A program made the translations under genes and the position numbers. Below are positions 2,228-39,542 of a stretch of DNA of 39,677 nt, in pieces. Each line of letters starts with the position of its first letter. Positions within the stretch are counted from its first letter, which is position 1. The DNA is from Chloroflexota bacterium (GTDB lineage: Bacteria; Chloroflexota; UBA6077; JACCZL01). The stretch spans positions 1 through 39,677 of the forward strand of contig JADZEM010000184.1 of NCBI GenBank assembly GCA_020850535.1, in the 5' to 3' direction. The notes under the pieces were generated by a model. The model saw only the letters and a list, made by a program, of their open reading frames with translations, was not told where the DNA came from and did not search any database.

Positions 2228-3088
2228 TCAGCCTGAGGCTGACCCGTGCCGCTCCAGCAGATCGTACAGGCTGTCGCCCAGGATACGGCGCAGGTCCGCC
2301 GATGCGATGAAGTCGCAGTGGGTGCGGACGGCCTCCAGCGCCTGCTGATAGGTCATCGCCTTGCGCAGGACCGGGTAGTCCGAGCCCCAGTGCAGCCGCT
2401 CTGGCCCGAAATGCTCGTACAGCGCCTTGACGACCGGTCGGCAGGCGGCGTGCGGAAAGTCCCACCCGACAGGGTTCAGGTAGTGGAATCCGGAGAGCTT
2501 GACGTGGATGTTCGGCAGCGCCGCCGACTTCACGATCTCCCGCAGTCCCTGGCCGCCGTCCGGCCCCTCCGCGAGGCGCGCGCCGGCCATGTGATGGCAG
2601 AGGAAGTGGAGGCTCGGGAAGCGCTCGGCAAGCTGCCGCAGGACTGGCTGGAGGCGGGCCGGCATCGCGAAGCTGGCGATCTGGTTCAGGTCGACGGCGG
2701 CCTGGAGAAACGCCAGCCCTTCGTCGGAAAGGTACCAGGAGCCGTCGTCCTGCGGATCGAAGTAGTGGGTGAACCCGCGCAGGCCGTAGCGGTGGACGGC
2801 CTGTCGCAGCCGGTCGGCGGCCCCCGGCTGGTGGTACGTCTCCCACCAGCGGCAGTCCACATCCGCGAACTGGTAGAGCCGATCCGGGAATCGGCGGGCC
2901 TGATAGGCGATGTAGTCGTTGTTGTCCGGGTTGTGCTCGATCCTGGCGCAGATCACCACGGCCTTGTCGACGCCGTTCCGATCCATCTCCCAGAGCAACT
3001 GCTCGATGGTCCCGCGCGACTCGGGGTCGGGGACGGGCGGCTCGTAGGGCCAGTAGCGCCAGGCGTGGCAGTGCGAATCGACGATCAT
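2228..3088 (-). CDS. Amidohydrolase-2 family metal-dependent hydrolase
   Basis: The start chosen gives 286 residues beginning MIVDSHCHAW, with GGAG upstream; the open frame extends further upstream but only through repeats. The protein shows the amidohydrolase TIM-barrel signature: HxH at H6/H8 on strand 1, CHHMAG in the middle, and the C-terminal Asp in HWGSDYP (D237). The family includes lactonases and decarboxylases such as 2-pyrone-4,6-dicarboxylate lactonase, and the substrate here cannot be read from sequence. It precedes iolD by 28 bp. A role in ring-opened inositol or sugar-acid metabolism is a guess from that pairing. Confidence 0.8.
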   Translation of the reverse strand: MIVDSHCHAWRYWPYEPPVPDPESRGTIEQLLWEMDRNGVDKAVVICARIEHNPDNNDYIAYQARRFPDRLYQFADVDCRWWETYHQPGAADRLRQAVHRYGLRGFTHYFDPQDDGSWYLSDEGLAFLQAAVDLNQIASFAMPARLQPVLRQLAERFPSLHFLCHHMAGARLAEGPDGGQGLREIVKSAALPNIHVKLSGFHYLNPVGWDFPHAACRPVVKALYEHFGPERLHWGSDYPVLRKAMTYQQALEAVRTHCDFIASADLRRILGDSLYDLLERHGSASG

Positions 3089-3218
3089 GAGAGGACTCCG
3101 CGCCGGTGTCGGTTTCCGGGTGTCCGGTCGAGTGTACCCCGCATCCACAACTCCTTCCCTCAAGGGCAATGGGCTGGACACGTTCGCACACGGCCGTCGT
3201 TGCGAGAGTCGGTACTTC

Positions 3219-3320
3219 ATGCAACGCGTGCACGACGCAATGGTCATCAGCTTGCCGCGCACGCGGCCATCGTCGCGGGAACGAGCAGCTTGTGCAATGC
3301 GTGCAAGACGCAATTGTCAT
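3219..3320. repeat. Degenerate direct repeat, about 29 bp, two copies
   Basis: Two near-identical segments, 3219-3247 and 3292-3320, share the pattern TGCAAYGCGTGCAMGACGCAA followed by KGTCATC. They lie in the non-coding gap between the amidohydrolase start and the hairpin element that begins at 3315. They resemble the units of the 20-bp array further on (GCACGACG core). Confidence 0.55.
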
Positions 3321-3574: not shown

Positions 3575-4999
3575 TCAGGGGCAGGTCAGGCGAGGTCTCA
3601 GTACCGCCAGCAGCTCCTCGCGCGGCAGGCACTGCTTGAACGCGAACGACTCCAGCGCCCGGTCGATCTCCGACTCGGATAGCCCCTCGAAGCGGCGGGC
3701 GTAGGCCGGCTGCATCAGGGCGGCGATGTGCCCGGCCAGGGCGGCCTGCCCCAGGTAGCGCTCGGCGCCGGCCGGATCGACGCTCGGATCGTCGATGGCG
3801 TTCTCGGCCAGCCGCGCAAGCTCGCGAACGAGATCCTTGGCCGGCGTGGACGGCAGCCACTGCATCCAGAAGTCCACCGCAAGCTGGCGCTTGGCCTCGT
3901 GGACCGGCTTCAGCCGCTGCATGTACTCGGAGCGCGGGTCGAGGTGGACCCAGCCCATGACGCCCACGTCCTTGTAGACCCAGGTCGTCCAGTGGATGCC
4001 CCGCTCGTTGAAGATGTCGATCTGATCGGCCATCGCCTGCATGCGGTACGGGTTCTCGTCGGGCGGGCCATTGTAGATCGAGCCGAACTCGCCGACCCAG
4101 AGCGGGACGTTGTGGCGCTTGCTGAAGACCGTGCCCTCGGCCTCGTCCACCCGCTCGATCTGGTAGGCGCGGTCCCAGTACCCGCCGATCAGCTCGCCAG
4201 GGTACGGCCCCGGTCCAAAGCCGGCCCGGGTGTAGTTGTGGCTGCTGTAAACGAGGTTCGGCGCGAACGGCGCTTCGAGGCCGTCGAACAGGCGGCTGTA
4301 GTAGTCGCCCTCCAGGAAGATGATGTGGTCCGGATCGATGGCGCGGATCGCGTCGACCACCCGCCGATAGAGCCGGTTGATGTTCGGCCAGTCGGGCGTG
4401 TAATCGTCGCTCAGGCGGCCGTCCGAGACGTTGCTGACCGGCTCGTTCATGACGTTGTAGCCGGCCACGTACTCCTCGTCGCGGTAGCGCCGCGCGAACT
4501 GCTCCCAGAGCGCCACCCACCGATCCTGAAAGTGTGGATGCTGCCAGAACAGCGAGTGGCGGTTGGCGTTGTCGCTGTGCCAGTCGGTGTTCTGCCACCC
4601 CTGGACGGCGTGCAGATCGAGGATGACGTACAGCCCGTACTTCGCGCACCAGCGGATCGCCCGATCCAGCCGCTTGAAGCCGTCCTCGACGTACTGGAAC
4701 GGTGCGCGGTCCTGCTCGAAGTGGCGGTAGTTGAGCGGCAGCCGCACCACCGTCGCGCCGCACTGCTTCATGAAGACGACATCGTCCTCGGTGAAGAAGT
4801 GATCCAGCAGCCGCTCGAAGAAGAATTCGGCCTTGGCCGTGCCGAGCATGCTGGTGATGGCCGACCGCAGCCCGTGCTCCGAGCCTGGGTAGCCGTTGAT
4901 GAAGTCTTCCATGTTCATCCAGCCGCCGACGCACGTCCCTCGGAGCGCGATCGGCGCGCCGCTGCTCTCGACGATCTGACCACCGGTCACGCGTAGCAT
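3575..4999 (-). CDS. Glycoside hydrolase family 5 (cellulase/glucanase-type)
   Basis: The protein has 474 residues, a TIM-barrel glycosidase of clan GH-A. The acid/base Glu is in YNVMNEP (E186), the nucleophile in WVGEFGS (E304), and SSHNY (H254) matches the conserved His-Tyr region. There is no N-terminal signal peptide, so it probably acts in the cytoplasm on imported oligosaccharides or glycosides. After the catalytic barrel there is a helical tail of roughly 110 residues that I do not recognise. The gene lies 32 bp downstream of an FGGY sugar kinase. Its ribosome-binding site and start codon are duplicated (see 4987-5035). The exact substrate is unknown. Confidence 0.85.
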
Positions 5000-5019
5000 G
5001 GATCCTCCCTGTGACGCAT
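4987..5019 (-). CDS. Possible 10-codon leader peptide overlapping the GH5 start
   Basis: A tandem duplication places a second ATG with its own GGGAGG four bases upstream, 20 bp before the GH5 ATG and in another frame. It encodes [10 protein letters not shown] and stops at TGA (4987-4989), just inside GH5. Its Shine-Dalgarno sequence directly follows the kinase stop. It could be a translated minicistron that couples kinase and GH5 translation, or an accident of the duplication. Confidence 0.35.
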
Positions 5020-5035
5020 GGATCCTCCCTGTCAG
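4996..5035 (-). repeat. Tandem duplication of SD plus start codon (20-bp unit)
   Basis: Bases 4996-5015 and 5016-5035 share the first 17 of 20 bases (GCATGGATCCTCCCTGT on the plus strand). On the minus strand each unit reads ACAGGGAGGATCCATGC, a strong Shine-Dalgarno sequence followed by ATG. Only the downstream ATG (4999) is in frame with GH5. Confidence 0.85.
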
Positions 5036-6549
5036 GCCGGCTGCTCGTCCACCACGAGCCGCTGGTAGAAATGCCGGTGTCGCTTCTGCGCCCGCATCAG
5101 CAGGTCGTGCGACTCAGGATCCGGCTGGTAAGTGCCCTCAAGCGTGGTGGGCCACGTCTCGACGTTGTCGATGGCGCCCAGCCGCTCAAGCGCCAGCAGC
5201 GCCGCCCCGCGACTCGACGCCTCGCGCTCGCCGGAGGCCACCAGCGGCCGGCCGATGGCGTCGGCCACGATCTGCGCCCAGGCGGGAGACTTCTGGAGCG
5301 CGCCGCCCGTGGCAATCGCCTGCTGTGGGGCCGGCAGCTCGCTGGTGACGATGCCGTACATCAGGGCGAAGCGCAGCGCCACACTCTCCAGGCCCGCTCG
5401 CAGGATCTCGATGGGCTTCGTGGCCTGGGTCAGCCCGAGGATCGCGGCGCGGGCGTGGGCGGCGTAGCCCGGGCCGCGCTCTCCCGCGATGAATGGCAGG
5501 ACCGTCAGGCCGTGGCCATCGGCGGCCATCTGCGAAAGCTGCTGCTCGGTCTCTTTGCCGGACGGCAATTGCAGCGTCTCGCTGAGCCAGGCGAACAGGT
5601 TGCCGCCGTTCGAGTCGGCGCAGCCCAGCACGAAGCGGTGCTCGTCCACGCGGTAGCACCACGCGCCCCAGGGGATCGGGGTGCGCTCGCCGCGCCACGC
5701 CACCCGCAGGGAGGCCGAGGTGCCGACCATCAGGGCCATCCGCTCCTGGGTCACGCAGCCGCTGCCGACGTTGCTGACCGCGCCGTCGCCGACGGCTGGC
5801 AGCCACTGGGATTCCGCCAGGGCCGGCCACCGCCGGGCGTACTCGTCGCGCAGGCTGCCAACGGCCACGCCCTGGCCGGTCAGCGGCAGCAGCCGGCCGG
5901 GGTCCAGCCCGATGGCGTCCAGCATCTCGTCATCCCACTTCTGGGCGTTCTGGTCGAGCAGGCCGGTGCCGGAGGCCATCGAGACGCCGCAGACCGAGCG
6001 ATCCAGCAGCCGCAGATGCAGGTACTCCCCGAACGAGACCCAGCGCCGGGTGGTCTTCCAGGCATCGGGCATCGTCTGCTGGAGCCAGAGCATCTTGGCC
6101 GGCCAGTAGCTCCAGTGGAGGAGGCAGCCGGTCCGGGCGTGGACCGCCCGCTCGTCCAGGCGTGACCGTAGTTGCAGCATCTGCTGGCGGGCGCGAGAGT
6201 CGGCCCAGAGCAGCAGCGGGGTGGTCGGGCGGTGCTGCGCATCGACGCCCAGGAAACTGTGCCAGAACGTGGAGATCGCCACGGCGTCGATCCGAAACGT
6301 CCCGCCGTGAACGGTCGCCAGCACGGCCAGGGTCTTGTCGATCAGGCCGAGCGTCGTGTCCAACACCCGATCGGCGTCGAGCGTGGCGGCCCCGGCCGCG
6401 GTCGCCTGGAGCGGCGTCTCGGCGGACATGCCGGTCCCGCGCACGTCGCGCCCGCGCCGGTCGTAGATCTCGGTGCGGACGGAGGTGGTGCCCACGTCGA
6501 TGGCGAGAACCAGGGGCGGCTCTACGTTCTTGAGCGTGACAGACGGCAT
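5032..6549 (-). CDS. FGGY-family carbohydrate kinase (gluconokinase/xylulokinase-like)
   Basis: The protein has 505 residues, the usual FGGY length. The N-terminal phosphate-binding loop is IDVGTTS (D18, G20, T21, T22). The middle contains ASGTGLLD and KWDDEML, which resemble gluconokinase-type members. The C-terminal FGGY signature region [20 protein letters not shown] is present. It should phosphorylate a free sugar, sugar acid or polyol with ATP in the cytosol, and gluconate is my best guess. An AAGGA lies eight bases before the ATG. It precedes GH5 by 32 bp, which suggests the kinase acts on a product of glycoside breakdown. Confidence 0.82.
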
Positions 6550-6625
6550 CGTCGGTGTCCTTCGAGTCGGCAGTAGGCGGGGCGAGTGAGGCAGGGGATT
6601 GGGGGCGCGGCGTCAGACGCCGGTA

Positions 6626-9007
6626 TCAGCGGCGGCGCGGCTGGGCCGTCGGGGTTGGCCGCTGGCGGGCAGGCTCCTGGAGCCCCTTGCGTGGGCCGCT
6701 GTTCGACGAGAACTTCGTGGAGTATTCCAGGCGAGGGCGGTCGTCGGTGATGATCTGGCCGGGGCCGACGCGCGCTTCAAGGGTGGCGCGGTCTGCGACG
6801 TACATCTTGCGGACGTCGTCGCCGGAGCGGATGTTCACCTGTGACAGCGCGGCCCGGGCGATGGGCTGCTGAAACAGGCGATCCACCCAGGGCAGTGCCG
6901 GGTCCAACGGCTGGTCCGACCCGACCAGCAGGCTCCCGTCGAACCAGAGGCTGACGTGCGGGAACGCCTGCAGGAACGTGCGGATCATCAGGTTGTGATC
7001 CTCGTCGGGCAGATCGCGGTTGACCCACTGCAGCATCAGGCCGCCGGGGTTCAGCGAGCGGCGCGCCAGCCGGTAGTACTCGATGGAGTAGAGGTTCGTG
7101 CTGCCGGCGTGGGTCGGCCAGATCGCATCGGCGGTGATCACGTCGTAGGTGTGGCCGCCGACCAGCAGGTGGTTGCGGCCATCGTCCACCAGCATCGTGA
7201 CGTTCGGGCGCTCGGTGACGGCGTAGTTCACGTCGCGGAACCAGTCCGCGCCCCGCACCACGCTCTGCGACAGCTCGACCACGGTGATCTGTGCGCCGTC
7301 GTAGCGGGTGGTGGCCCCGGCCGTCGCGCCGCCGCCCAGGCCGACCACCAGGACCTGCTTCGGCTGCGGGTGGAGCAGCATCGGCAGGTGCCCGAGCATC
7401 CGGTGGAAGAAGACCATCCAGTCGGCGTCGTTCGCCTGGTGATGGTGGTTCATGTACATCGCCAGGTGCTCGTCGCGGTCACGGGTGATGGTGACGGTCG
7501 TCTCCAGGCCCTCTTCCGACCAGAGGATCCGCTCGCCGGGGAAGCGGGCGGCCAGCAGGTCGGCGTAGGCGCGCGGCGCGGCGGCTCCCAGTACCCCGAC
7601 CACCAGCAGGCCCACCAGCGCCGCCGACAGGCGCGTGCGCGTCGGGGTCCAGGAGTCGGCGGCGAGCGTCAGGACGGCCGCCAGCACGTTGAGGCCGGCC
7701 AGCAGCGTCAGGGTGAGGTTGCTGCCGAGCGTGGGCACGAGCAGGAAGCCGGCTGAGAGCGCCCCGAAGATCGCGCCGAACACGTTGGCGGCGTACAGCG
7801 AGCCGAGCCGCTTCCCGACGCTCTCGCCGCCGGCCGTGAAGAGGGTCACCGCCAGCGGAAAGCTCATGCCCAGGAAGAGGGCCGGCGGGAACATGGCGGT
7901 GAACGCCAGCACGCCCATCGCGAAGATCGACGGCCCCTCCTCGGTCGCAAACCCGAGGGCCACGAGCAGCGGCTCCATGCGAGCCAACGCCTGGAGCGCC
8001 AGCAGCGAGCTGACAGCTACCAGTGCCTGGAGCGCCACCAGGGCCAGCGGTCCGTTCTTCGCACGTCGGAGGAACGGGCTGACAGCCGCGCTCCCGAGGG
8101 TGATCCCGAGCAGGAACGCCGCCAGCATCACCGTGAAGGCGTAGGTGGTGGTCTCCAGGAACAGCACCAGCAGGCGGGTCCAGACGACCTCGTAGGCCAG
8201 CGAGCAGAACCCGGAGACTCCCAGGAGGAACGGCAACAGGCGAAGCAGCGTCGGCGGGCAGCGTACGTCGGCTGTCGCGGCGGCGTGCGGCGCGTCGGCG
8301 GCCTGGGCGGGCTGGGCCGCCTGCCGGCTCACCAGCACCGAGAGCAGCCCAGCGACGACGTTCAGGGCGGCGGCGGTCCCAATCGAGCCGCGCACACCCA
8401 GCTCGCCGATCAAGAGGAAGCCGGCTGCCAGCGTGCCGACGACGGCTCCGAACGTGTTGATGGCGTAGAGCAGGCCGATGGCCCGGCCGCCGTCGTCGCG
8501 CGATCCGAGCGCGGCCTTGACCACCAGCGGGAAGCTTGCGCCCATCAGGGCGGTTGGCGCCAGCAGGACGGCGAACGCGATGGCGAACCGCAGCACCGGG
8601 GCCAGGGCGCTCCCACCGACGGTCCGGTACAGCGGCCCGTAGACCTCTTGCAGGCTGGCGAACGCGATGGGTGTCAGCAGGCCGGTCACGCCGATCAGGA
8701 TCTCGACGACGCCGTACCAGAGCAGCGGCGAGCGCACCCGGTCCGCCACGCGTCCGGCCACGTACCCGCCGAGCGCCAGCCCGGCCATGAACGCCGCCAG
8801 CACCGTGGCCGTCGCGTAGGCGCTGACGCCGAACACCAGCGCCAACTGTCGCTGCCAGAGCACCTGGTAGATCAGGCCGCTGGCGCCGGAGAGCAGGAAG
8901 ACCAGCAGGAGCAGGCCGAACGCGCCCGAGGTCAGACTGATGGCGGGCAGGACGCGGGCAGGAGCCAGCGGCGCGCGGGCCTCGGCCTCCGAAAGCGATG
9001 ACGACAT
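6626..9007 (-). CDS. Fused MFS-like membrane domain / spermidine synthase-like methyltransferase-fold protein
   Basis: The protein has 793 residues in two parts. Residues about 28-500 form many hydrophobic helices with MFS-like repeats (note the LGGYVAGRVADR loop). Residues about 520-765 form a Rossmann domain of the polyamine aminopropyltransferase family, with the cofactor loop GLGGGATAG (556-564) and VDDGRNHL (607-614). The catalytic DxxDP-type motif is altered to DAIWP (627-631), so true spermidine synthesis is doubtful. The tail is short and rich in Pro, Arg and Gln. Such fusions are common in Chloroflexi, Planctomycetes and Proteobacteria, with unclear function. It starts 3 bp after the methyltransferase stop with no Shine-Dalgarno, so translation is probably coupled. 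Confidence 0.8.
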   Translation of the reverse strand: MSSSLSEAEARAPLAPARVLPAISLTSGAFGLLLLVFLLSGASGLIYQVLWQRQLALVFGVSAYATATVLAAFMAGLALGGYVAGRVADRVRSPLLWYGVVEILIGVTGLLTPIAFASLQEVYGPLYRTVGGSALAPVLRFAIAFAVLLAPTALMGASFPLVVKAALGSRDDGGRAIGLLYAINTFGAVVGTLAAGFLLIGELGVRGSIGTAAALNVVAGLLSVLVSRQAAQPAQAADAPHAAATADVRCPPTLLRLLPFLLGVSGFCSLAYEVVWTRLLVLFLETTTYAFTVMLAAFLLGITLGSAAVSPFLRRAKNGPLALVALQALVAVSSLLALQALARMEPLLVALGFATEEGPSIFAMGVLAFTAMFPPALFLGMSFPLAVTLFTAGGESVGKRLGSLYAANVFGAIFGALSAGFLLVPTLGSNLTLTLLAGLNVLAAVLTLAADSWTPTRTRLSAALVGLLVVGVLGAAAPRAYADLLAARFPGERILWSEEGLETTVTITRDRDEHLAMYMNHHHQANDADWMVFFHRMLGHLPMLLHPQPKQVLVVGLGGGATAGATTRYDGAQITVVELSQSVVRGADWFRDVNYAVTERPNVTMLVDDGRNHLLVGGHTYDVITADAIWPTHAGSTNLYSIEYYRLARRSLNPGGLMLQWVNRDLPDEDHNLMIRTFLQAFPHVSLWFDGSLLVGSDQPLDPALPWVDRLFQQPIARAALSQVNIRSGDDVRKMYVADRATLEARVGPGQIITDDRPRLEYSTKFSSNSGPRKGLQEPARQRPTPTAQPRRR

Positions 9008-24552: not shown

Positions 24553-25101
24553 TCACCGGCCGATCTCCACGACCACGTACTGCTGCTCGATGGAGACGGG
24601 GAACGTCTCGGCCACGTATGGCCCCTTCAGCATCCCTTCCATGCCCGGCTCGGTCTCGCCGGCGTCGCCGGTGGCCGCTGCGACCTCGGCCGGCGTGGTG
24701 CCAGGATTCGGCGGGGGTGGCGTGCCGGCCACCAGGGTCTCGTCGGCGCCTTCGGCCACCAGCTCTGCGCCGGGTGTGACGCTCACGTCGTAGCGGCGGA
24801 CGCGCACCTGGACCGGGTCGAACCAGGACTGCCCCGTCCGCACGTCGAACTCCCACCCATGCCAGGGACAGCGCACGATCTCGCCGGGGCGGCTGTACTC
24901 ATACTCGCCCACCGCGCCGGACTTCAGGAAGCCGTAGGCGTTGCCCAGGCAGAGCGGCCCGGCCTGATGCGGGCAGCGGTTCAAGATCGCAAAGAACTCG
25001 CCATGCAGGTTGTAGACGCCCACCGACCGGCCGCCCACATCCACGATCTTCCTGGTGCCGGGGGTGATCTCGTCCACCGTCCCGACGATGTACTTCGCCA
25101 T
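24553..25101 (-). CDS. Rieske [2Fe-2S] ferredoxin-type protein
   Basis: The protein has 182 residues. The cluster ligands are C43 and H45 in NRCPHQAGPL, and C78 and H81 in VRCPWHGWEF, the normal C-x-H and C-x-x-H pair. The Rieske fold ends near residue 118. After that comes a Pro/Ala/Gly-rich segment (about 125-158) and a final strand, making it longer than a plain Rieske ferredoxin. No oxygenase catalytic domain is attached. It may pass electrons to an oxygenase encoded elsewhere, or its cluster may be structural. It is the first gene of a probable pair with GH42. The upstream region carries the 18-bp array. Confidence 0.85.
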   Translation of the reverse strand: MAKYIVGTVDEITPGTRKIVDVGGRSVGVYNLHGEFFAILNRCPHQAGPLCLGNAYGFLKSGAVGEYEYSRPGEIVRCPWHGWEFDVRTGQSWFDPVQVRVRRYDVSVTPGAELVAEGADETLVAGTPPPPNPGTTPAEVAAATGDAGETEPGMEGMLKGPYVAETFPVSIEQQYVVVEIGR

Positions 25102-25507: not shown

Positions 25508-26620
25508 TCAGCCGCGCGGCTGCAGGTTGTAGAGCTTGCGCGCGTTGCCGCACATCAGCGCCTCTTCAAAGCCGGCCGGCAGGTCGGTCAGCGGCAGGCA
25601 GGCGTCTGGTGCGTCGAAGTCCCAGTGTGGGTAGTCCGTCGCAAACATCAGCTTGTCCTGGAGCCAGGGGGCCTGCTCCAACAGTTGCACGAACTGATGC
25701 GGGACGGGCGGCTCCTCCATCGGCTGGGTCGTGAGCCAGAAGTGCTCCGCGAGGTACTCCGACGGCTTGCGCTGGAGCTTCGGCACCTCGGCCCGCAGCT
25801 TGGACCAGGCGGCATCCATCCGCCAGGCCATCGACGGCGCCCAGGCGAAGCCGCCTTCGATCAGCACGACCTTCAGCTTCGGGAACCGCTCGAAGACGCC
25901 CTCGAAGATGAAGCTGGCGATCTGCGTCATGAAGGCGATCGACTGCCCGGTGTGATCCTCGATGTAGTAGGACGGCCAGCCGGCCCCGGAGACGGGCATG
26001 CCGCCGCCGCCGCCAACGTGGATGCCGATGGGCTTGCCGAGCGCCTCGGCCGCCTCGTAGATCGGCCAGTACTTGCGCCGCCCCAGCGGCTCGCTGGTCC
26101 GCATCGCGAACATGAGCTGGAGGAAGCCCTCATAGCTGCCGCGCCGCTCGATCTCGGTCACCGACAGCGGGCCGTCCTCGTACGGGATCACGAGGCCAGA
26201 CCGCAGCCGAGGCTCGGGGATCAGCCACTCGTGGATCTGCCACTCGTTGATGGCACTCGACAGGGCCGCCGAGTATTCGAGATTTCGCATGCTGGCCGCG
26301 CCCATCAGCGGCTGCAGGATGCCGTACTCGATGTTCCAGGCGTCCAGCAGCTGGATCCGCATGAAGTCGAGGTCCGAGCCGGCTGGCCCGCCGTTCGGCG
26401 GGTAGGCGTCCCGGCGGGCGGCGTTCGGGTAGGTGCGCGGCACGTTGGTGCCGGTGAACCCACGTCCGCCAACGTTCCGGTGGAAGTCGCGCCACTCGTC
26501 CGTCAGAAAGTACTGGTCCAAAGCGCGCGGCGACCGCGGCGTCGGGTGGATGTCGCCGTCGATGACGGGGAACTTCGTCTGCCGACGATCAGCGCTGGAC
26601 TGGGCGAGCGTCACTACCAT
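25508..26620 (-). CDS. Amidohydrolase-2 family protein (DxH variant), paralogue 1
   Basis: The start ATG 26620 (MVVTLAQSS) has AAGGG seven bases upstream; the protein has 370 residues. The strand-1 metal motif reads IDGDIHPTP, so the usual first His is Asp (D23, H25). HVGGGGGMP lies mid-protein and the C-terminal FATDYPHWDF (D329) is clear. The family covers decarboxylases and hydrolases of aromatic-derived acids, and the reaction here is unknown. It is 84 bp downstream of a paralogue with the same TDYPHW signature at nearly the same residue. The pair lies upstream of the Rieske gene, which hints at aromatic or cyclic acid catabolism, by inference only. Confidence 0.82.
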   Translation of the reverse strand: MVVTLAQSSADRRQTKFPVIDGDIHPTPRSPRALDQYFLTDEWRDFHRNVGGRGFTGTNVPRTYPNAARRDAYPPNGGPAGSDLDFMRIQLLDAWNIEYGILQPLMGAASMRNLEYSAALSSAINEWQIHEWLIPEPRLRSGLVIPYEDGPLSVTEIERRGSYEGFLQLMFAMRTSEPLGRRKYWPIYEAAEALGKPIGIHVGGGGGMPVSGAGWPSYYIEDHTGQSIAFMTQIASFIFEGVFERFPKLKVVLIEGGFAWAPSMAWRMDAAWSKLRAEVPKLQRKPSEYLAEHFWLTTQPMEEPPVPHQFVQLLEQAPWLQDKLMFATDYPHWDFDAPDACLPLTDLPAGFEEALMCGNARKLYNLQPRG

Positions 26621-26704
26621 CGTGTGTCCCTTCTCCCTGGCGACGTGGGTCTTGTCGCCTTCCCAGGCCGGCCGCGCTGGGTGCATGGCCGGCACGCTTC
26701 ACGC

Positions 26705-27814
26705 TCAGCGGGCGTGGCGCCCGAAGCCGTAGAAACTGGCGGCGTTGTCGTAGAGGATGTTGCCGCGCTGCGCCTCGGTGAGGCCCACCGGCAGCGCCTC
26801 CTCGGGCGTGTCGAAGTGCCAGTGAGGATAGTCCGTCGAGAACATCAGCAGCGTGTCGGAGTCGATCTGCTCCATGATCTGCTGCACGATGACCGGGTCG
26901 CGCGGGAGATCCAGCGGCTGGAGCGAGAAGCGCATCCGCTCCTTGATGTACTCGGACGGCAGTGCCTTGACCCAGGGCGTCTCGCGTCGGAGGCCTTTCC
27001 AGACCTTATCGAAACGCCAGAAGAAGCCCGGCAGCCAGGTCCACCCGCTCTCGATCATCGAGAGGCGGAGCGTCGGGAACTTGTCGAGCAGGCCCTCGGA
27101 GATGATGCTCAGCAGGTGCGACTGAAACAGCGGGGCCATGTCCACATACTCTTCGATGTAGTGGGACGGCCAGCCGGCCGCGCTCATCGGGGAGCCTGAC
27201 GCCCCGCCGAACTGGAAGCTCGCCACCAGGTTGTGGCGCTCGATCGCCTCGAAGACGGGCCACCAGCGCCGCTGACCGTACAGCGACTGCGACACGGCCG
27301 GCAGCATCACCTGAACGATGCCCGGATGATCGCCCACGCGGTCGATCTCGGCGGCGGCCATCTCCGGCACGCGCATCGGCACGAGCATGGTGGCGCGGAG
27401 CCGTGGCTCGTTCGCCAGCCACTCGTCGATGAGCCAGTCGTTGACGGCGCTGGCCATCGCAGCCGCGGTGTCCGGGGCCGTGATGCCGTCCACGCTGTAC
27501 GCGCAGTTGAGGATGCCGACCTCGACGTTCCAGGCATCCAGCACCTGCTCGCGGATCAACTGGAGGCTGGAACCGGGCGGGCTGCCGTCGGGCGGTCGCG
27601 TGCCGTCCAGGGCGGAGGTCGCGGCGTTGCCGGGGTAGGCTGTGTCAACCGGCCCCTTGAACGCGGACATGGTGATGTACTCGCGCCAGTGCGCGGAGAG
27701 GTACGGGAAGAGGGCCTGGGCGTTCGGGACAGTGCAATGGATGTCGGTGTCGATGACGGGCTGTCCGAGATCCATGCCTCGGACAGCCGGCCGCGAGACT
27801 GGTTGTACGGCCAC
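26705..27814 (-). CDS. Amidohydrolase-2 family protein (DxH variant), paralogue 2
   Basis: The GTG start at 27814 follows GGAGG by four bases, giving 369 residues; an in-frame ATG at 27775 (MDLGQPVID) is a less supported alternative. The metal motif is IDTDIHCTV (D24, H26), again D-x-H in place of H-x-H. FSTDYPHWHF carries the C-terminal Asp (D328). Shared segments with paralogue 1 include the PPGSSLQLIREQVLDAWNVE region, GWPSHYIEEY and the C-terminal block. The mid-protein His-Gly-rich metal segment differs (FGGASGSPMSA here), so the two may act on different substrates or form a heteromer. Confidence 0.8.
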   Translation of the reverse strand: MAVQPVSRPAVRGMDLGQPVIDTDIHCTVPNAQALFPYLSAHWREYITMSAFKGPVDTAYPGNAATSALDGTRPPDGSPPGSSLQLIREQVLDAWNVEVGILNCAYSVDGITAPDTAAAMASAVNDWLIDEWLANEPRLRATMLVPMRVPEMAAAEIDRVGDHPGIVQVMLPAVSQSLYGQRRWWPVFEAIERHNLVASFQFGGASGSPMSAAGWPSHYIEEYVDMAPLFQSHLLSIISEGLLDKFPTLRLSMIESGWTWLPGFFWRFDKVWKGLRRETPWVKALPSEYIKERMRFSLQPLDLPRDPVIVQQIMEQIDSDTLLMFSTDYPHWHFDTPEEALPVGLTEAQRGNILYDNAASFYGFGRHAR

Positions 27815-33986: not shown

Positions 33987-34388
33987 ATGAAGACTGTGCT
34001 TCTCACTCTCGATACGCGCGCCCAGCGCTTTACCGATCTGACTGCCGCCGTCGCACAGTTCTGTCGGCCGCTGGGCGATGGGCTGGTCAACGTCTTCGCG
34101 CCGCACGCGACCGTCGGGCTGGCGCTGATGGAGACTGGCTCAGGCTCGGAGCCGGATCTCGAAGAGGCGCTCGGGCGGCTGCTCCCGCGTGACGACCGCT
34201 GGACCCACCGGCACGGCGCGCGCGGTCACGGCGCGGACCACGTCCTGCCCGCGTTTGTCAGCCCCTCGCTGGTGGTCCCCGTCTTCGAGGGCCGCATGGC
34301 GCTCGGGACGTGGCAGTCCATCGTGCTGGTCGATCTCAACGTCGACAACCCGGTGCGGCAGGTCCGCCTCAGCTTCCTCGTGGGCTGA
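33987..34388 (+). CDS. yjbQ: YjbQ/UPF0047 family protein
   Basis: The protein has 133 residues, the usual family length. The family pattern is visible: VFAPHATVGLALMETG near 37-51, DDRWTHRHGARGHGADHVLPAFV (about 68-90), and GTWQSIVLVDLN near the end, with several His residues that form the conserved pocket. The family is called secondary thiamine-phosphate synthase from genetic evidence in E. coli; its native role is unsettled. No Shine-Dalgarno is present. A TACCAT sits six bases before ATG, which could be a -10 element of a leaderless transcript. The last 20 bp overlap the convergent HAMP gene. Confidence 0.85.
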   Translation: MKTVLLTLDTRAQRFTDLTAAVAQFCRPLGDGLVNVFAPHATVGLALMETGSGSEPDLEEALGRLLPRDDRWTHRHGARGHGADHVLPAFVSPSLVVPVFEGRMALGTWQSIVLVDLNVDNPVRQVRLSFLVG

Positions 34389-34890
34389 GGGGCGGGCTGC
34401 CGGCGCTCGCCCTGGCCGTGGCCTCGCTGGCCGCGGACGGCTCCAGGTCGAGTACGAGATCGGCCGGATCGGGCGGCGTGTTCGGGGGTGGGCATCCGCA
34501 CGCCGGCGGCGCACTGCGCAGGCGGATGATGCGCGCCAGCGCCGCGTCGTACCGCACCAGCACCTCGTTCATGATGACGACGAGGTTGCCCACGTCGTCG
34601 CGTGGGCCAGGGTAGAAGCAGCGACCGTCGAGCTGCCCGTGGACGACGATCCGCCGGGCGGTGCGCGTCACGTCGCGGACGGGCGCGTAGGCGAGGCGCG
34701 CCAGCACCCAGGCGATGGGCGCGAAGAGGGTCAGCAGCAGGGTGCTGGCGAGCAGGAGCGTCACCCACAGTGACGACGGGGCGACGGCCATAGCCGGCCC
34801 GGCCAGCAGGACGGTCAGCCCGCTCAACGCCAGCAGCAGGGCGGCGGCGCAGACCATCGCGCCGAGCCACAGCTTGAACCGTATCGACAT
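34369..34890 (-). CDS. Small two-helix membrane protein with HAMP domain
   Basis: The protein has 173 residues, with GGAG six bases before ATG. Two hydrophobic helices (about 7-32 and 40-66) are followed by a HAMP-like segment, APVRDVTRTARRIVVHG then PRDDVGNLVVIMNEVLVRY (about 69-117), with the Pro and the (D/E)-V-G landmarks in place. A disordered Pro/Ala-rich tail follows. No kinase, cyclase or chemoreceptor output domain is attached, so it could be a signalling adaptor. It is the last gene of the five-gene minus-strand run, 66 bp after the cyclic-nucleotide-binding gene. Confidence 0.7.
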   Translation of the reverse strand: MSIRFKLWLGAMVCAAALLLALSGLTVLLAGPAMAVAPSSLWVTLLLASTLLLTLFAPIAWVLARLAYAPVRDVTRTARRIVVHGQLDGRCFYPGPRDDVGNLVVIMNEVLVRYDAALARIIRLRSAPPACGCPPPNTPPDPADLVLDLEPSAASEATARASAGSPPLSPRGS

Positions 34891-34956: not shown

Positions 34957-35421
34957 TCAGGCGAGCGTGGACGTGGCGTCGCGGGCCGTCAGCGATGCCA
35001 GCCGCTCGTCCAGGATGCGGATGCGCCGGGCCAGCACCCGGATCAGCTCGATGGACAGCTCCGGGTACCGCCGCAGCTCCTGGATCAGCTCCCAGCGTGA
35101 GAGCAGCGCGCAGCGGACCGGTGTGACGGCCACCACCGACGAGGACCGGGTGTCATCGTCGAGCACGGCCATCTCGCCGAAGATGTCGCCTTCGTCCAGG
35201 CGGGCCAGGATGACCGCCTTTCCGCCCTCTTCCGGCTCGCGCGACACATCGACCTGCCCGTCCAGGATCAGGTAGAGTGCCACCGCCGACGTCCCCTGAC
35301 GGAGAATGGTGGTGCCGGGGTCGAAGCGCCGGATCGTCATGAGATCGCCGATGCGGGAGCGCTGACGCTCGTCCAGCGGGGCGAACAGCGGAGCGGTTCG
35401 GAGCGCCGTTTCGAGGTTCAT
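34957..35421 (-). CDS. Stand-alone cyclic nucleotide-binding domain protein
   Basis: The protein has 154 residues and is almost entirely one cNMP-binding (CAP_ED) domain. The beta roll shows GTTILRQGTSAVALYLILDG, and the phosphate-binding cassette is GDIFGEMAVLDDDTRSSS with G82-E83 and R92-S93. A C-terminal helix (about 110-145) follows but no helix-turn-helix, so it is not a CRP-type regulator. It begins 8 bp after the GH3-type gene stop with GGGAG in the gap, clearly the same operon. It may bind cAMP or cGMP and regulate a partner protein. Confidence 0.85.
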   Translation of the reverse strand: MNLETALRTAPLFAPLDERQRSRIGDLMTIRRFDPGTTILRQGTSAVALYLILDGQVDVSREPEEGGKAVILARLDEGDIFGEMAVLDDDTRSSSVVAVTPVRCALLSRWELIQELRRYPELSIELIRVLARRIRILDERLASLTARDATSTLA

Positions 35422-35429
35422 CGCACTCC

Positions 35430-37109
35430 CTAGTCGGTCTCACGGACGACCGTGAACTGCTTTCCGAACTCACGGTCTGGCGTGAGGTGTGGGATCTTGA
35501 CCTGGGCCTCGGGCGCGCCGGCGCTCACACGGGCCTGCTTGTAGGCGTCGAACGTACCGGGCGCGACGATCTTCAGGACGGCCGGTCCGAGCCGCAACGA
35601 CTCGCGCTTTGTCTCGTACTCGACGTTCTCGGTGCAGAGGGCATGATCGATCTGCCCGGCCAGCCCGCGCAACTGCTCGTCGGAGAGATCCTGCTTCAGC
35701 TCCAGGTAGAAGGCGTAGCGGGGCGGCGAGTCGAACTGTGGGACCGCTGCGAAGTGCCGAATCGCGTCCTCCCACTCGGTGCCCTCGACCGTCGCCATCA
35801 TCGCCGCCGTCACCTGCTGCTCGGCCAGCTTCTCGCCCGTCATCGAGGTCATCCCCCGACCTTTGCGGACGAACTCGATCAACGGCACGTCGTGGTAGAA
35901 GTCCACGACCCGGATGACGTCGTTGATGTCGTAGCGGTACAGGCCGGCCGAGGTCGTGAAGAGGATGTAGTAGTCACGGTTCGGCTGCAGCTCGGCGGCC
36001 GTCAGAACGGGCGGGTTGGCCTGGTCCCGCGCCTCGACGGGGATGAACTCGAAGAAGCTGGTGGTGACGGCCAGTGCGCCAGCCGAGCCAGCATCGGTCA
36101 GCGGGATCGAGCCGCAGCCCTCGCTGGCGAGGTAGCCACGGTCGCGGATCGGCAGGTTCGGGAACCAGCGGCGCAACTGGCGGAAGTAGAGCGGCATCGT
36201 GCCGCCCTTCCAGCAGAGCACCGTGGCCAGGTCCGGCCAGATCTCCAGCGGACGGAGCTCGCCGCTGTTGCGGACCAGGGCGGCCAACTCGTCGGCCCGG
36301 CGGGGGTTTGGCGCGAGCCGGGCGCTGACGACGCGGTCCAGCCAGTCCGGCAGCGGCCCGAGGGCGTTCGCCGTCCCGTTCCGCACGTCGCGGATCAGCT
36401 CCTCGCGGTACTGCTGGAGCTTCTCGCAGAGCAGCACGATGCTGCTGGGGTTCAAGGACGAGATGGCGGTCAGCGGCGCGTTCAGCGCCATCCGCAGCGT
36501 CAGGTAGTACTTCAGCTCGATGTTGGTGATCAGCGCGATCTCATACGGCAGTGCGAAACGGCTGCGGACCAGCGACGGCTGCCGCTTGACCACGAACCCG
36601 GACATCGCGCCGTAGGGGATGCCTGCCGAGGTCCGGCCCTCCACGTCGCGGCTGGAGGTGACCATGAACTGGCCGGCCCCGGCCTCCGGGTGATCTTCGA
36701 GCACGCGCCAGGTGTGGGTCTGAACGGCGTGGTTGACCTCGGCCAGGGACGAGGTGGTCACGGGGATGAACTTGGCCTTGCCGGTCGTGCCGCTGGTGGT
36801 GGCGAACATCAGCGGCGACTCGGCAGTCAGCACGTTCTGCTCGCCGGCCGTCATGCGGTCGATGTATGGCGACAGGTTCTCATACGTGTTGATCGGCACG
36901 TTCCGCTGGTAGTCGCCGATGTTCCGGATGCTGCCGAAGCCGAAGCGCTTGCCGTACTCGGTGTCGCGGTGCGCCCGGATGATGCTCAGCAGCTTCTTCT
37001 CCTGCGCGACTGTCGCGTTGTAGGTCGCATCCTCGAAGCGCCGAGCGTCGGAGAACCAGCGCCACAGCTGCGTGACCATCACAGCGGTTGTCGCGCGTCG
37101 GGTGTTCAT
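35430..37109 (-). CDS. GH3-family acyl-acid amido synthetase (auxin-responsive GH3-like)
   Basis: The start ATG 37109 (MNTRRATTAV) has GGAGG nine bases upstream; a TTG three codons earlier is possible. The protein has 559 residues, near the plant GH3 length. The adenylate-forming motif is FATTSGTTGKAKFIPVT (SGTTGK at about 106-111). Further GH3 features are YLASEGCGSIPL, the YYILFTTSAGLYRYDINDVIRV block and GMTSMTGEKLAEQQV. Plant members activate a carboxylate (auxin, jasmonate, benzoate) with ATP and join it to an amino acid. Bacterial members are poorly characterised. It lies 24 bp after the enolase gene in a five-gene operon. Confidence 0.88.
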   Translation of the reverse strand: MNTRRATTAVMVTQLWRWFSDARRFEDATYNATVAQEKKLLSIIRAHRDTEYGKRFGFGSIRNIGDYQRNVPINTYENLSPYIDRMTAGEQNVLTAESPLMFATTSGTTGKAKFIPVTTSSLAEVNHAVQTHTWRVLEDHPEAGAGQFMVTSSRDVEGRTSAGIPYGAMSGFVVKRQPSLVRSRFALPYEIALITNIELKYYLTLRMALNAPLTAISSLNPSSIVLLCEKLQQYREELIRDVRNGTANALGPLPDWLDRVVSARLAPNPRRADELAALVRNSGELRPLEIWPDLATVLCWKGGTMPLYFRQLRRWFPNLPIRDRGYLASEGCGSIPLTDAGSAGALAVTTSFFEFIPVEARDQANPPVLTAAELQPNRDYYILFTTSAGLYRYDINDVIRVVDFYHDVPLIEFVRKGRGMTSMTGEKLAEQQVTAAMMATVEGTEWEDAIRHFAAVPQFDSPPRYAFYLELKQDLSDEQLRGLAGQIDHALCTENVEYETKRESLRLGPAVLKIVAPGTFDAYKQARVSAGAPEAQVKIPHLTPDREFGKQFTVVRETD

Positions 37110-37133
37110 CGTTCTCAACCTCCGTTCGGCGTC

Positions 37134-38318
37134 TCAGGAGACGCGCAGGGTTCGCATCGATGCGCCGACGACGCGGTGCGACTGCGAGAGTTCGAAGAGC
37201 GTGTCCAGGCGAACGTGTACGCCAAGTCCCGGCCCGGCAAGCGCGTCGCCGCGGCCTCCAGGCCTGACCGTCAGGTTCTCGGCGGTCAGATCCCGGCGGA
37301 GCAAGAACAGGTTGTCCGCCCCCTCGTGATGGCGGAAGCCCGGCTGCGCGACAGCGGCCACGAGCCGCCCGGCTGCGGTCAGGATACCGCTCTCCCCGAC
37401 CTGTGCGCCTAGCTGACAGAACAGTCCAGACTGGCTTGCCAGCTCGACCAGCTCCAGGGCTGCCAGCGGCCCGCCGCACTTTGAGACGCGTACGTTCAGG
37501 ACGGTGCAGGCGTGGGCCTCGACCAGCCGGCGGGCGTCCGCCATGCTGCACAGCGACTCGTCCACGATGACGTCTTCAGGCAGGCCGGCGCTCAGGCGTC
37601 GGAGGCCTTCGACGTCGTCCGCGGGGACCGGCTGCTCGTAGGACACCAGGTCGTACGGGCGCAGCAGCTCGGCCATCTGGAACGCCTCATCGGCCGTCCA
37701 GGCGCAGTTGGCGTCGGCCCGCAGCTCCACGCCGCGCCCGAGGATCTGCCGCGCCAGCCGCACCGTCTTCAGATCGTGCTCGCGGCCCCGCCCGAGCTTC
37801 AGCTTGACGTCCTTGAAGCCGTACGTGCGGAAGAACAGCAGCATGCCGATCAGGGCCGCGCCGCTGGCGAACGGCGCGACGCCGCCGTAGGTCACCGTGT
37901 CACGGACGGCCCCACCCAGCAGATCGGCTGCCGAACGGCCGGTGGCCTTGCCGAGCGCGTCCAGCAGGGCGGTCTCGACGGCGCACCACGCGGCCCCGGG
38001 CGCCTGCTTGAACAGGTGGAGATCGTCCCGGAGGGCGCGCAGGCCGCGGACCACATCCTGGTCTGGCAACTGACGGGCGAGCAGGGCCGGGCCGTACTCG
38101 TCGGCCACGCGGTCGAGTGCGGTCTGGGCAGTCTCGCCGGTGACGTACTCGCGCGGGACGCCCTCGCCGAAGCCGATGCTGCCATCCGTCAGTTGGAGCA
38201 TCACGATCAGGTTGGTGGTGCTGGAGCGGCTGGCGAGGGCATGCCCGAAGCTGAACCGGAACGGCAGCTCCACGAGGTGCGCGGCAAGCCGCTGGATCCG
38301 CGGGCCATCAGCGCCCAT
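37134..38318 (-). CDS. Enolase-superfamily enzyme, muconate lactonizing/dipeptide epimerase-like
   Basis: The start ATG 38318 has GGAGG upstream and overlaps the hydrolase stop by 11 bp; the protein has 394 residues. An N-terminal capping domain precedes a TIM barrel. MLE-subgroup landmarks are KxK (K172, K174 in KLKLG), metal ligands D202 (RADANCAW), E228 (SYEQPV) and D253 (IVDES), and NVRVSKCGG on the sixth strand. By hand alignment the usual catalytic Lys of that strand is Arg (R277), with K280 at a normally non-catalytic place. Family members are cycloisomerases, N-acylamino-acid racemases and dipeptide epimerases. Next to a GH3-type synthetase, an acyl-amino-acid substrate is an attractive guess. 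Confidence 0.83.
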   Translation of the reverse strand: MGADGPRIQRLAAHLVELPFRFSFGHALASRSSTTNLIVMLQLTDGSIGFGEGVPREYVTGETAQTALDRVADEYGPALLARQLPDQDVVRGLRALRDDLHLFKQAPGAAWCAVETALLDALGKATGRSAADLLGGAVRDTVTYGGVAPFASGAALIGMLLFFRTYGFKDVKLKLGRGREHDLKTVRLARQILGRGVELRADANCAWTADEAFQMAELLRPYDLVSYEQPVPADDVEGLRRLSAGLPEDVIVDESLCSMADARRLVEAHACTVLNVRVSKCGGPLAALELVELASQSGLFCQLGAQVGESGILTAAGRLVAAVAQPGFRHHEGADNLFLLRRDLTAENLTVRPGGRGDALAGPGLGVHVRLDTLFELSQSHRVVGASMRTLRVS

Positions 38319-39273
38319 GACGGCCCTCCGAAGCGGCCTCGCCGGCGGCATGCTGTGCGATCTGGCGTCGGAGCCAGCCCAGCAGGTCGGCGCGGTAGGC
38401 GCGCAACGTCGGCTCCGGCTCGAAGTCGAGGGTGTGGGAGGCGTCGGGGTAGGTGATGGCCGTGCGATCTGGCGCCAGGAGGCCGCCGAGCCAGCGGCAC
38501 GAGGCGGCGGCGTCCATGATCGGGTCGCGCTCGCCGATCTGCAGCAGGATGGGCAGGCTCAGGCGGGCAGCGTACTGATCCCGCGCCCGGTCCAGCCGGC
38601 GCGTCTCCCAGAAGAAGCGGGCCGAGGCTGTCAGCAGCCGGTAGGCGTCCTGCCGGATGTACGCGCGGTACTCTTCGTCGTCGGTGTAGTTCTCGGGGAT
38701 CAGCGGGATCTGGATCTGGCGCTCTGGCCGCGTGAGCCGCCCGAGCAACACACGAAGCTTCCTGAACGGGCTGAGATCGACCTTCGGGAAGAGGCCCGGG
38801 CCGTGGAGCAGCAGCCCGGCCAGCCGCGACTGCTGCCCGGCGGCGTAGGCCAGGGCCAGCTTGGCGGCCCAGCTCGACCCGACCAGGAACAGCGGCGTCT
38901 CAGGGTGGCGGATCTCCACGAGGCAGACCACGCGGTCCAGGTCGTGGAGCAACTGGCTGACGCTCGGCGTGTGGCCCCGTAGACCGCCGCTCAGGCCGGA
39001 GCCGCGCCGGTCAGGTGCGTAGACGGCGATGCCGTTCCCCGCGAGGAAGCCGGCCGTCTCGGCGAACCACGCGCCGTGGCTGGCGATGCCGTGCAGGAAG
39101 ACCAGCGCGCCGGCAACCGGCCGGTCGGTCGGGAGCCAGGAGCGGTAGTGCAGGGACACACCGTCGCAGGCCGCGAGGCGGGTGCGGCTGGCGACGTACC
39201 GGCCGCCGGCGGGCGCCGGGAATGAGTGCCGCTCTGCCGTGTCCGTGATCGCTGGCGCTTGCAGCTGCCTCAT
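38308..39273 (-). CDS. Alpha/beta hydrolase (monoacylglycerol lipase/lysophospholipase-like)
   Basis: The start ATG 39273 (MRQLQAPAIT) has GAGG eight bases upstream; the protein has 321 residues. The frame is open further upstream without family sequence. The oxyanion-hole motif is FLHGIASHG (59-67), APDRRGSGLSGG is typical of lysophospholipase-like hydrolases, and the nucleophile elbow VGSSWA has S134 with Ala in place of the last Gly. The acid is in IGERDPI and the His in DASHTLDF. It should cleave an ester or possibly an amide of a lipid-like or small aromatic acid. It is the first gene of the five-gene operon and overlaps the enolase start by 11 bp. Confidence 0.83.
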   Translation of the reverse strand: MRQLQAPAITDTAERHSFPAPAGGRYVASRTRLAACDGVSLHYRSWLPTDRPVAGALVFLHGIASHGAWFAETAGFLAGNGIAVYAPDRRGSGLSGGLRGHTPSVSQLLHDLDRVVCLVEIRHPETPLFLVGSSWAAKLALAYAAGQQSRLAGLLLHGPGLFPKVDLSPFRKLRVLLGRLTRPERQIQIPLIPENYTDDEEYRAYIRQDAYRLLTASARFFWETRRLDRARDQYAARLSLPILLQIGERDPIMDAAASCRWLGGLLAPDRTAITYPDASHTLDFEPEPTLRAYRADLLGWLRRQIAQHAAGEAASEGRHGR

Positions 39274-39542
39274 CGCGCTCGCCTCGCCTTCCCTGCGTTC
39301 GCGGCCAACCCTGGCATGGTCGCTAAGGTTGGCCGTCTGGTGCCAGGATAGTGCGATTCTGGCCGCGTGTGTGCGCCGCCGGTTACATGCCGTCGGTTCG
39401 CTCGCGAACAGCATGAAACCGACTCAGCGCGCGCTACATACGGGAGACTGCGTGTCTGCGCACGGAATCTCGCGGCGGATCTCTCCGCCGGTGCTGCTGG
39501 TCCGGTCGCCCGGTCAGTGTATCCGTCTGCCGCGCGGTGCGC
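39274..39542. other. Non-coding leader region of the five-gene operon
   Basis: The region must contain the operon promoter. Somewhat lower GC around 39320-39440 is compatible with that, but I could not pick a confident -35/-10 pair on the minus strand. No tRNA, small gene or repeat is evident before the terminal element. Confidence 0.45.

Follow-up and report, generated by a model that had tools for sequence, protein, structure and literature searches.

Gene neighbourhood of the enolase-superfamily gene

The window, by which we mean the entire 39,677-nucleotide stretch of DNA analysed, carries on its minus strand, at 37134-38318, a gene for a 394-residue enzyme of the enolase superfamily (ATG at 38318, stop at 37134). 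The protein matches the Pfam models MR_MLE_C (154.1 bits) and MR_MLE_N (29.8 bits), both above cut-off. The plus strand of the same interval contains two stops, and the gene is the minus-strand one. An alternative ATG at 38351 would give a longer minus-strand frame (38351-37134); the start at 38318 reproduces the residue numbering of an earlier sequence-only reading of this gene, and that numbering is used below.

The neighbouring genes lie on the same strand. Upstream, a gene for an alpha/beta hydrolase (PF12146; 38308-39414, minus strand), whose reading frame has an internal ATG at 39282, overlaps the enolase start by 11 bases. Downstream, 15 bases past the enolase stop, comes a gene for a GH3 acyl-adenylating, amide-forming enzyme (35430-37118, minus strand), and 8 bases past it one for a small protein with a cyclic-nucleotide-binding domain (34957-35421, minus strand), which also follows GH3 at two other loci, L062 and L066. 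The contig ends at 39677, and genes upstream of that point lie beyond view.

Elsewhere in the window, the cyclic-nucleotide-binding gene is followed by a 173-residue reading frame (34369-34890, minus strand) that weakly resembles the membrane portion of MtrB- and CzcS-type sensor histidine kinases and has no kinase domain. A 793-residue protein (6626-9007, minus strand) joins MFS_1 and Spermine_synth domains in one chain, and there are three Amidohydro_2 genes (2228-3313, 25508-26695, and 26705-27814, minus strand), two of them in tandem and adjoining a Rieske protein at 24553-25101.

Arginine at the second catalytic lysine position

The sequence-only reading had described an enzyme with the KxK base and all three metal ligands of its superfamily and with arginine where a second catalytic lysine was expected. 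Motif reading (VKLKLG, ADANCAW, YEQPV, VDESL, and LNVRVSKCGG) and alignment bear out both parts. The protein has the capping domain and barrel fold of the muconate cycloisomerase subgroup, the invariant pair K172-x-K174 on the second strand (codons at 37797-37805, minus strand), and acidic metal ligands at the ends of strands 3, 4, and 5, namely D202 (37713-37715), E228 (37635-37637), and D253 (37560-37562), all on the minus strand. At the end of the sixth strand, where all five named comparators have lysine, it has R277 instead (37488-37490, minus strand, computed from the 38318 start).

We aligned the protein by profile to YkfB, an L-Ala-D/L-Glu dipeptide epimerase (1jpm; residues counted along the printed chain), whose two bases are given as K162 and K268 in the accessible text of PMC5808125. 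K172 and K174 fall opposite K160 and K162, R277 falls opposite K268, the first lysine of NIKLMKAGG, and K280 (37479-37481, minus strand) falls opposite K271. The sequence-only reading had named K280 as the residue that might turn out to be the catalytic lysine. Since K280 aligns with K271, matching the second, non-base lysine of the dipeptide epimerases (NIKLMKCGG), it is not a displaced catalytic lysine. The AlphaFold2 model (pLDDT 92.3, pTM 0.91) agrees with this register, with the sixth strand spanning 273-276, R277 at its end, and residues 278-281, K280 included, in the next helical turn; moreover, position 280 is Gln in both CatB comparators.

The position of R277 is occupied by lysine in all five solved relatives that were read residue by residue (5 of 16 solved sequences) and in all five named comparators, which come from plasmids and comprise two CatB proteins, a D. 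radiodurans protein annotated MenC, an L-Ala-D/L-Glu epimerase, and DgcA. In a chosen subset of 42 aligned members with arginine at this position, hereafter the Arg-type enolases, KxK and the metal ligands are invariant, as are H26, R31, R56, Y58, T60, and E62. Two of these, H26 (38241-38243, minus strand) and R56 (38151-38153, minus strand, in the GEGVPR-YVTGE motif), occur in none of the five named comparators. Some members from a Planctomycetota search described below relax parts of the GEGVPR-YVTGE motif, for example with YLTG for YVTG.

Membership in the known families was assessed next to these residues. With YkfB the enzyme shares the fold, KxK, the three metal ligands, and a second-lysine motif of equal length (NIKLMKAGG against NVRVSKCGG), but K174 alone is kept of the two lysine bases, K268 having become R277; Ala stands opposite R24 of 1jpm, one of the residues highlighted for dipeptide epimerases in the SFLD according to the accessible part of PMC3965090; H26 and R56 are new and invariant; and the gene is linked to GH3 and a hydrolase. 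By residue alignment to 1jpm and by NCBIfam model scores, membership among the dipeptide epimerases is rejected. CatB, a muconate cycloisomerase, shares subgroup and fold (MLE structures reach a Z score of about 45), but it has Lys at 277, Gln at 280, and catechol-pathway neighbours, and with the muconate cycloisomerase model TIGR02534 the protein scores 132.6 bits, short of the 334.95 required, so that by model score it is not a member of that family. Nor does its score with TIGR01928 (99 bits, cut-off 200.65) place it among the o-succinylbenzoate synthases, and no NCBIfam model reached its own cut-off with the Arg-type enolase. Proteins of this type are at risk of being labelled dipeptide epimerase or muconate cycloisomerase by similarity.

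In structure comparisons the protein lies closest to N-acylamino-acid racemases and muconate cycloisomerases, with the N-succinyl Arg/Lys racemase 2p88 at the top (Z score 47.8; Foldseek E value 1.2e-33). This match, together with possible production of N-acyl amino acids by GH3 partners (PMC12493201, accessible text), would suit an enzyme that is still an N-acyl amino acid epimerase or racemase with R277 serving as the second acid/base. The racemases, however, keep the lysine (NIKLMKCGG in 2p88) at 25% identity to our protein, as do all five solved relatives noted above, and the change from Lys to Arg coincides with the appearance of two further invariant residues in the pocket, H26 and R56, so new chemistry or a new substrate is favoured and we regard retained racemisation as unlikely.

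Spread and origin of the Arg-type family

Relatives were collected with a profile scan built around two N-terminal motifs rather than the arginine motif, from which 80 of 130 were kept. Every one of these 80, fetched without selection on the arginine motif, has Arg at position 277. Three relatives from the window's own phylum share it. When 199 genomes of the phylum to which locus L070 belongs (Planctomycetota) were searched separately by profile, 26 hits were obtained at 1e-60, 24 of them with Arg; one of the remaining two reads NIKLMKCGG and the other has neither motif. Arg was absent from 26 other enolases taken from relatives of the window's genome, in which the position is Lys (20), Tyr (4), Ser (1), or Gly (1). 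Its recurrence in relatives and in the Planctomycetota hits rules out that the arginine is an accident or a sequencing artefact.

A maximum-likelihood tree was computed from 67 rows, 37 of them Arg rows (of 81; L030, with a match shorter than 260 aa, was omitted), and these 37 form one group with a support of 100/100. Chloroflexota, Melainabacteria, and Planctomycetota are all represented in this clade, along with other lineages. Frequencies differ: the enzyme was found in 4 of 400 Chloroflexota genomes, where it is rare, in 17 of the 77 genomes from the class that includes L034, and in 24 of the 199 Planctomycetota genomes. A protein-only scan of the genome contigs gave no relative. On these sequences, the Arg-type enolases are an uncharacterised bacterial family of single origin that is widespread across bacteria. 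We found no description of the arginine variant or of a link between GH3 and an enolase in the open-licence literature, and papers under subscription could exist.

Loss of one catalytic lysine might also be read as a sign of a degenerate or noncatalytic homologue. KxK and all metal ligands are nevertheless present in every member read, across several phyla, which makes such a homologue most improbable.

Partner genes and a candidate pathway

At 68 of 80 loci, an alpha/beta hydrolase of the PF12146 kind is encoded within 2 kb of the Arg-type enolase and in the same orientation; of the 12 loci where it is missing, three (L067, L075, and L076) break off at the enolase or shortly after it. Around the 26 loci of the Planctomycetota search, a hydrolase match was present within 1.5-kb flanks at 10, compared to none at 26 control enolase loci. 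At L066 (8086-10167, plus strand), the hydrolase and the enolase form one continuous 693-residue reading frame, with GH3 next to it and a ketosynthase (KS) gene past the cyclic-nucleotide-binding protein. The partner hydrolases have invariant Asp253 and His283 (window numbering) in 70 aligned sequences, with Ser as the nucleophile in 36 and Cys in 34. Among the partners of L034-L113, Cys is found in nearly all loci of the Melainabacteria group and Chloroflexota, and Ser in the planctomycete loci and in the window.

A small gene precedes the hydrolase at 22 loci; only L108 and L172 match the PF14518 seed, and the seed built from the small gene and that of PF14518 match each other only at an E value of 0.019. 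PF14518, an iron-containing redox enzyme domain, is fused to an Arg-type enolase in a 769-residue reading frame at L033 (7826-10135, plus strand), which GH3 follows, and L172 has a PF14518-like gene, the enolase, and GH3 side by side.

GH3 itself is found within 2.6 kb of the enolase, in the same orientation, at 34 of 80 loci, mostly close kin from Melainabacteria, and 7 of 19 additional regions, which are less related, have it directly beside the enolase. In 9 of these 19 (L166, L167, L168, L170, L174, L175, L176, L178, and L179), neither a hydrolase nor a GH3 seed match lies near the enolase. A genome-wide search, for which 22 of the 80 loci were chosen, found GH3 in 21 of the 22 enolase-bearing genomes and in 1 of 14 control genomes; at most Planctomycetota loci GH3 is not near the enolase and lies elsewhere in the genome. 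The gene order is nearly constant in Melainabacteria (hydrolase, enolase, GH3, SDR, Mpo1-like, SDR, SDR), and an Auribacterota cluster (L068) comprises KS, KS, GH3, DUF1571, enolase, hydrolase, and two SDR genes.

We also fetched 15 GH3 regions from enolase-bearing genomes. Nine of them (L119, L121, L123, L124, L126, L128, L130, L131, and L132) have FabZ, FabG, two KS genes, and a hydrolase beside GH3, and the other six are without KS or cut by contig ends. Eight of the nine genomes are labelled Planctomycetota or a family thereof; the ninth, L131, is labelled Bacteroidales, yet its enolase groups with planctomycetes in the tree.

A precedent for the pairing of GH3 with a hydrolase comes from ornithine lipid synthesis. 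According to the accessible text of PMC12493201, GH3 enzymes adenylate carboxylates, and in Singulisphaera a GH3 enzyme and an alpha/beta hydrolase together make ornithine lipid: a free fatty acid and ATP are what OlsH uses to form N-acyl ornithine, to which OlsI, the hydrolase, attaches the second acyl chain. The OlsH/OlsI pathway of Singulisphaera acidiphila combines enzymes of the two kinds that stand beside the Arg-type enolase, but the main text of that paper does not contain the word enolase, and the window's GH3 scores only 140.6 bits against the cut-off of 620 of the OlsH model NF052613, so by that model it is not an OlsH. The synthesis of N-acyl dehydrotyrosines (stieleriacines) was also considered and set aside, as the main text of PMC12479983 is without 'GH3', 'enolase', and 'hydrolase' and the synthesis rests on NasY. 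Neither 'GH3' nor 'enolase' occurs in the accessible text of a review of planctomycete metabolites (PMC12078418).

Enzymes of the enolase superfamily start by abstracting the alpha-proton of a carboxylate with the help of Mg2+ (PMC5808125, accessible text). In the Arg-type enzyme, K174 would take the alpha-proton of the metal-bound carboxylate, while R277 would lie on the opposite face, where its guanidinium would be too weakly acidic to serve readily as a second base and could instead stabilise the enolate or anchor an anionic or leaving group. Because K174 is kept and the opposing lysine has become an invariant arginine, return of the proton from the other face should be disfavoured, and a one-base course is therefore likelier than racemisation; such chemistry fits the arginine at the second-lysine position. 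From these residues and the gene linkage we tentatively infer, at somewhat less than even confidence, a one-base Mg-enolate enzyme that carries out an elimination or cycloisomerisation of a carboxylate or N-acyl amino acid, in one pathway with the hydrolase and GH3. The sequence-only reading had named a similar chemistry as possible, and its arginine has proved real, invariant, and correctly placed; it missed the family and the conserved GH3 and hydrolase partners. Arginine can act as the base in some other enzymes, which counts against a one-base course. The remoteness of GH3 at most Planctomycetota loci, the nine regions in which the enolase stands without a partner match, the close kinship of many GH3-linked loci, and the low score of the window's GH3 with the OlsH model also count against the pathway.

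With regard to the order of steps, the hydrolase may free or transfer an acyl group, the enolase may alter the resulting acid or N-acyl amino acid, and GH3 may adenylate an acid and form an amide, as OlsH does in ornithine lipid synthesis. Given the OlsH/OlsI precedent and the structural match to N-acylamino-acid racemases, the substrate of the enolase is probably either what GH3 makes or the acid that it consumes.

Hydrolase, enolase, and GH3 follow one another in this order in the window and at most Melainabacteria loci, and MenH, MenC, and MenE of menaquinone synthesis offer an analogy. By that analogy, the enolase would dehydrate or cyclise a free acid made by the hydrolase, GH3 would then activate it, and no amino acid would enter the enolase step. 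Adenylation of carboxylates by GH3 (PMC12493201, accessible text) would suit this course, as would the below-cut-off match to o-succinylbenzoate synthase models, but no menaquinone-type partners were present among the scanned neighbours and the Deinococcus MenC comparator has lysine, and we consider a MenC-like reaction unlikely.

For Planctomycetota, Melainabacteria, and some Chloroflexota, the family suggests an acyl-amide or lipid pathway that has yet to be characterised. A bolder form of the proposal, possible but doubtful, is that hydrolase, Arg-type enolase, and GH3 constitute a cross-phylum route to amide-linked lipids or acyl-amino-acid natural products, in which the Lys/Arg site would perform a one-base elimination yielding, for example, a dehydroamino acid or an unsaturated acyl-amide; in Planctomycetota, a FabZ-FabG-FabZ-KS-KS set stands beside GH3. 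If true, one-base elimination by a Lys/Arg enolase would be a new reaction for the superfamily in an undescribed pathway. The single origin of the family and its recurring partners make it a testable case of one substitution redirecting enolate chemistry.

Two further arrangements were observed around GH3. L128 (7621-15773, minus strand) has FabZ, FabG, FabZ, KS, KS, hydrolase, and GH3 in a row, an arrangement that recurs in other planctomycete genomes. L031 carries, in the same region as its enolase-GH3 pair, a second block of hydrolase, GH3, and epimerase-type SDR genes (3804-7346, minus strand).
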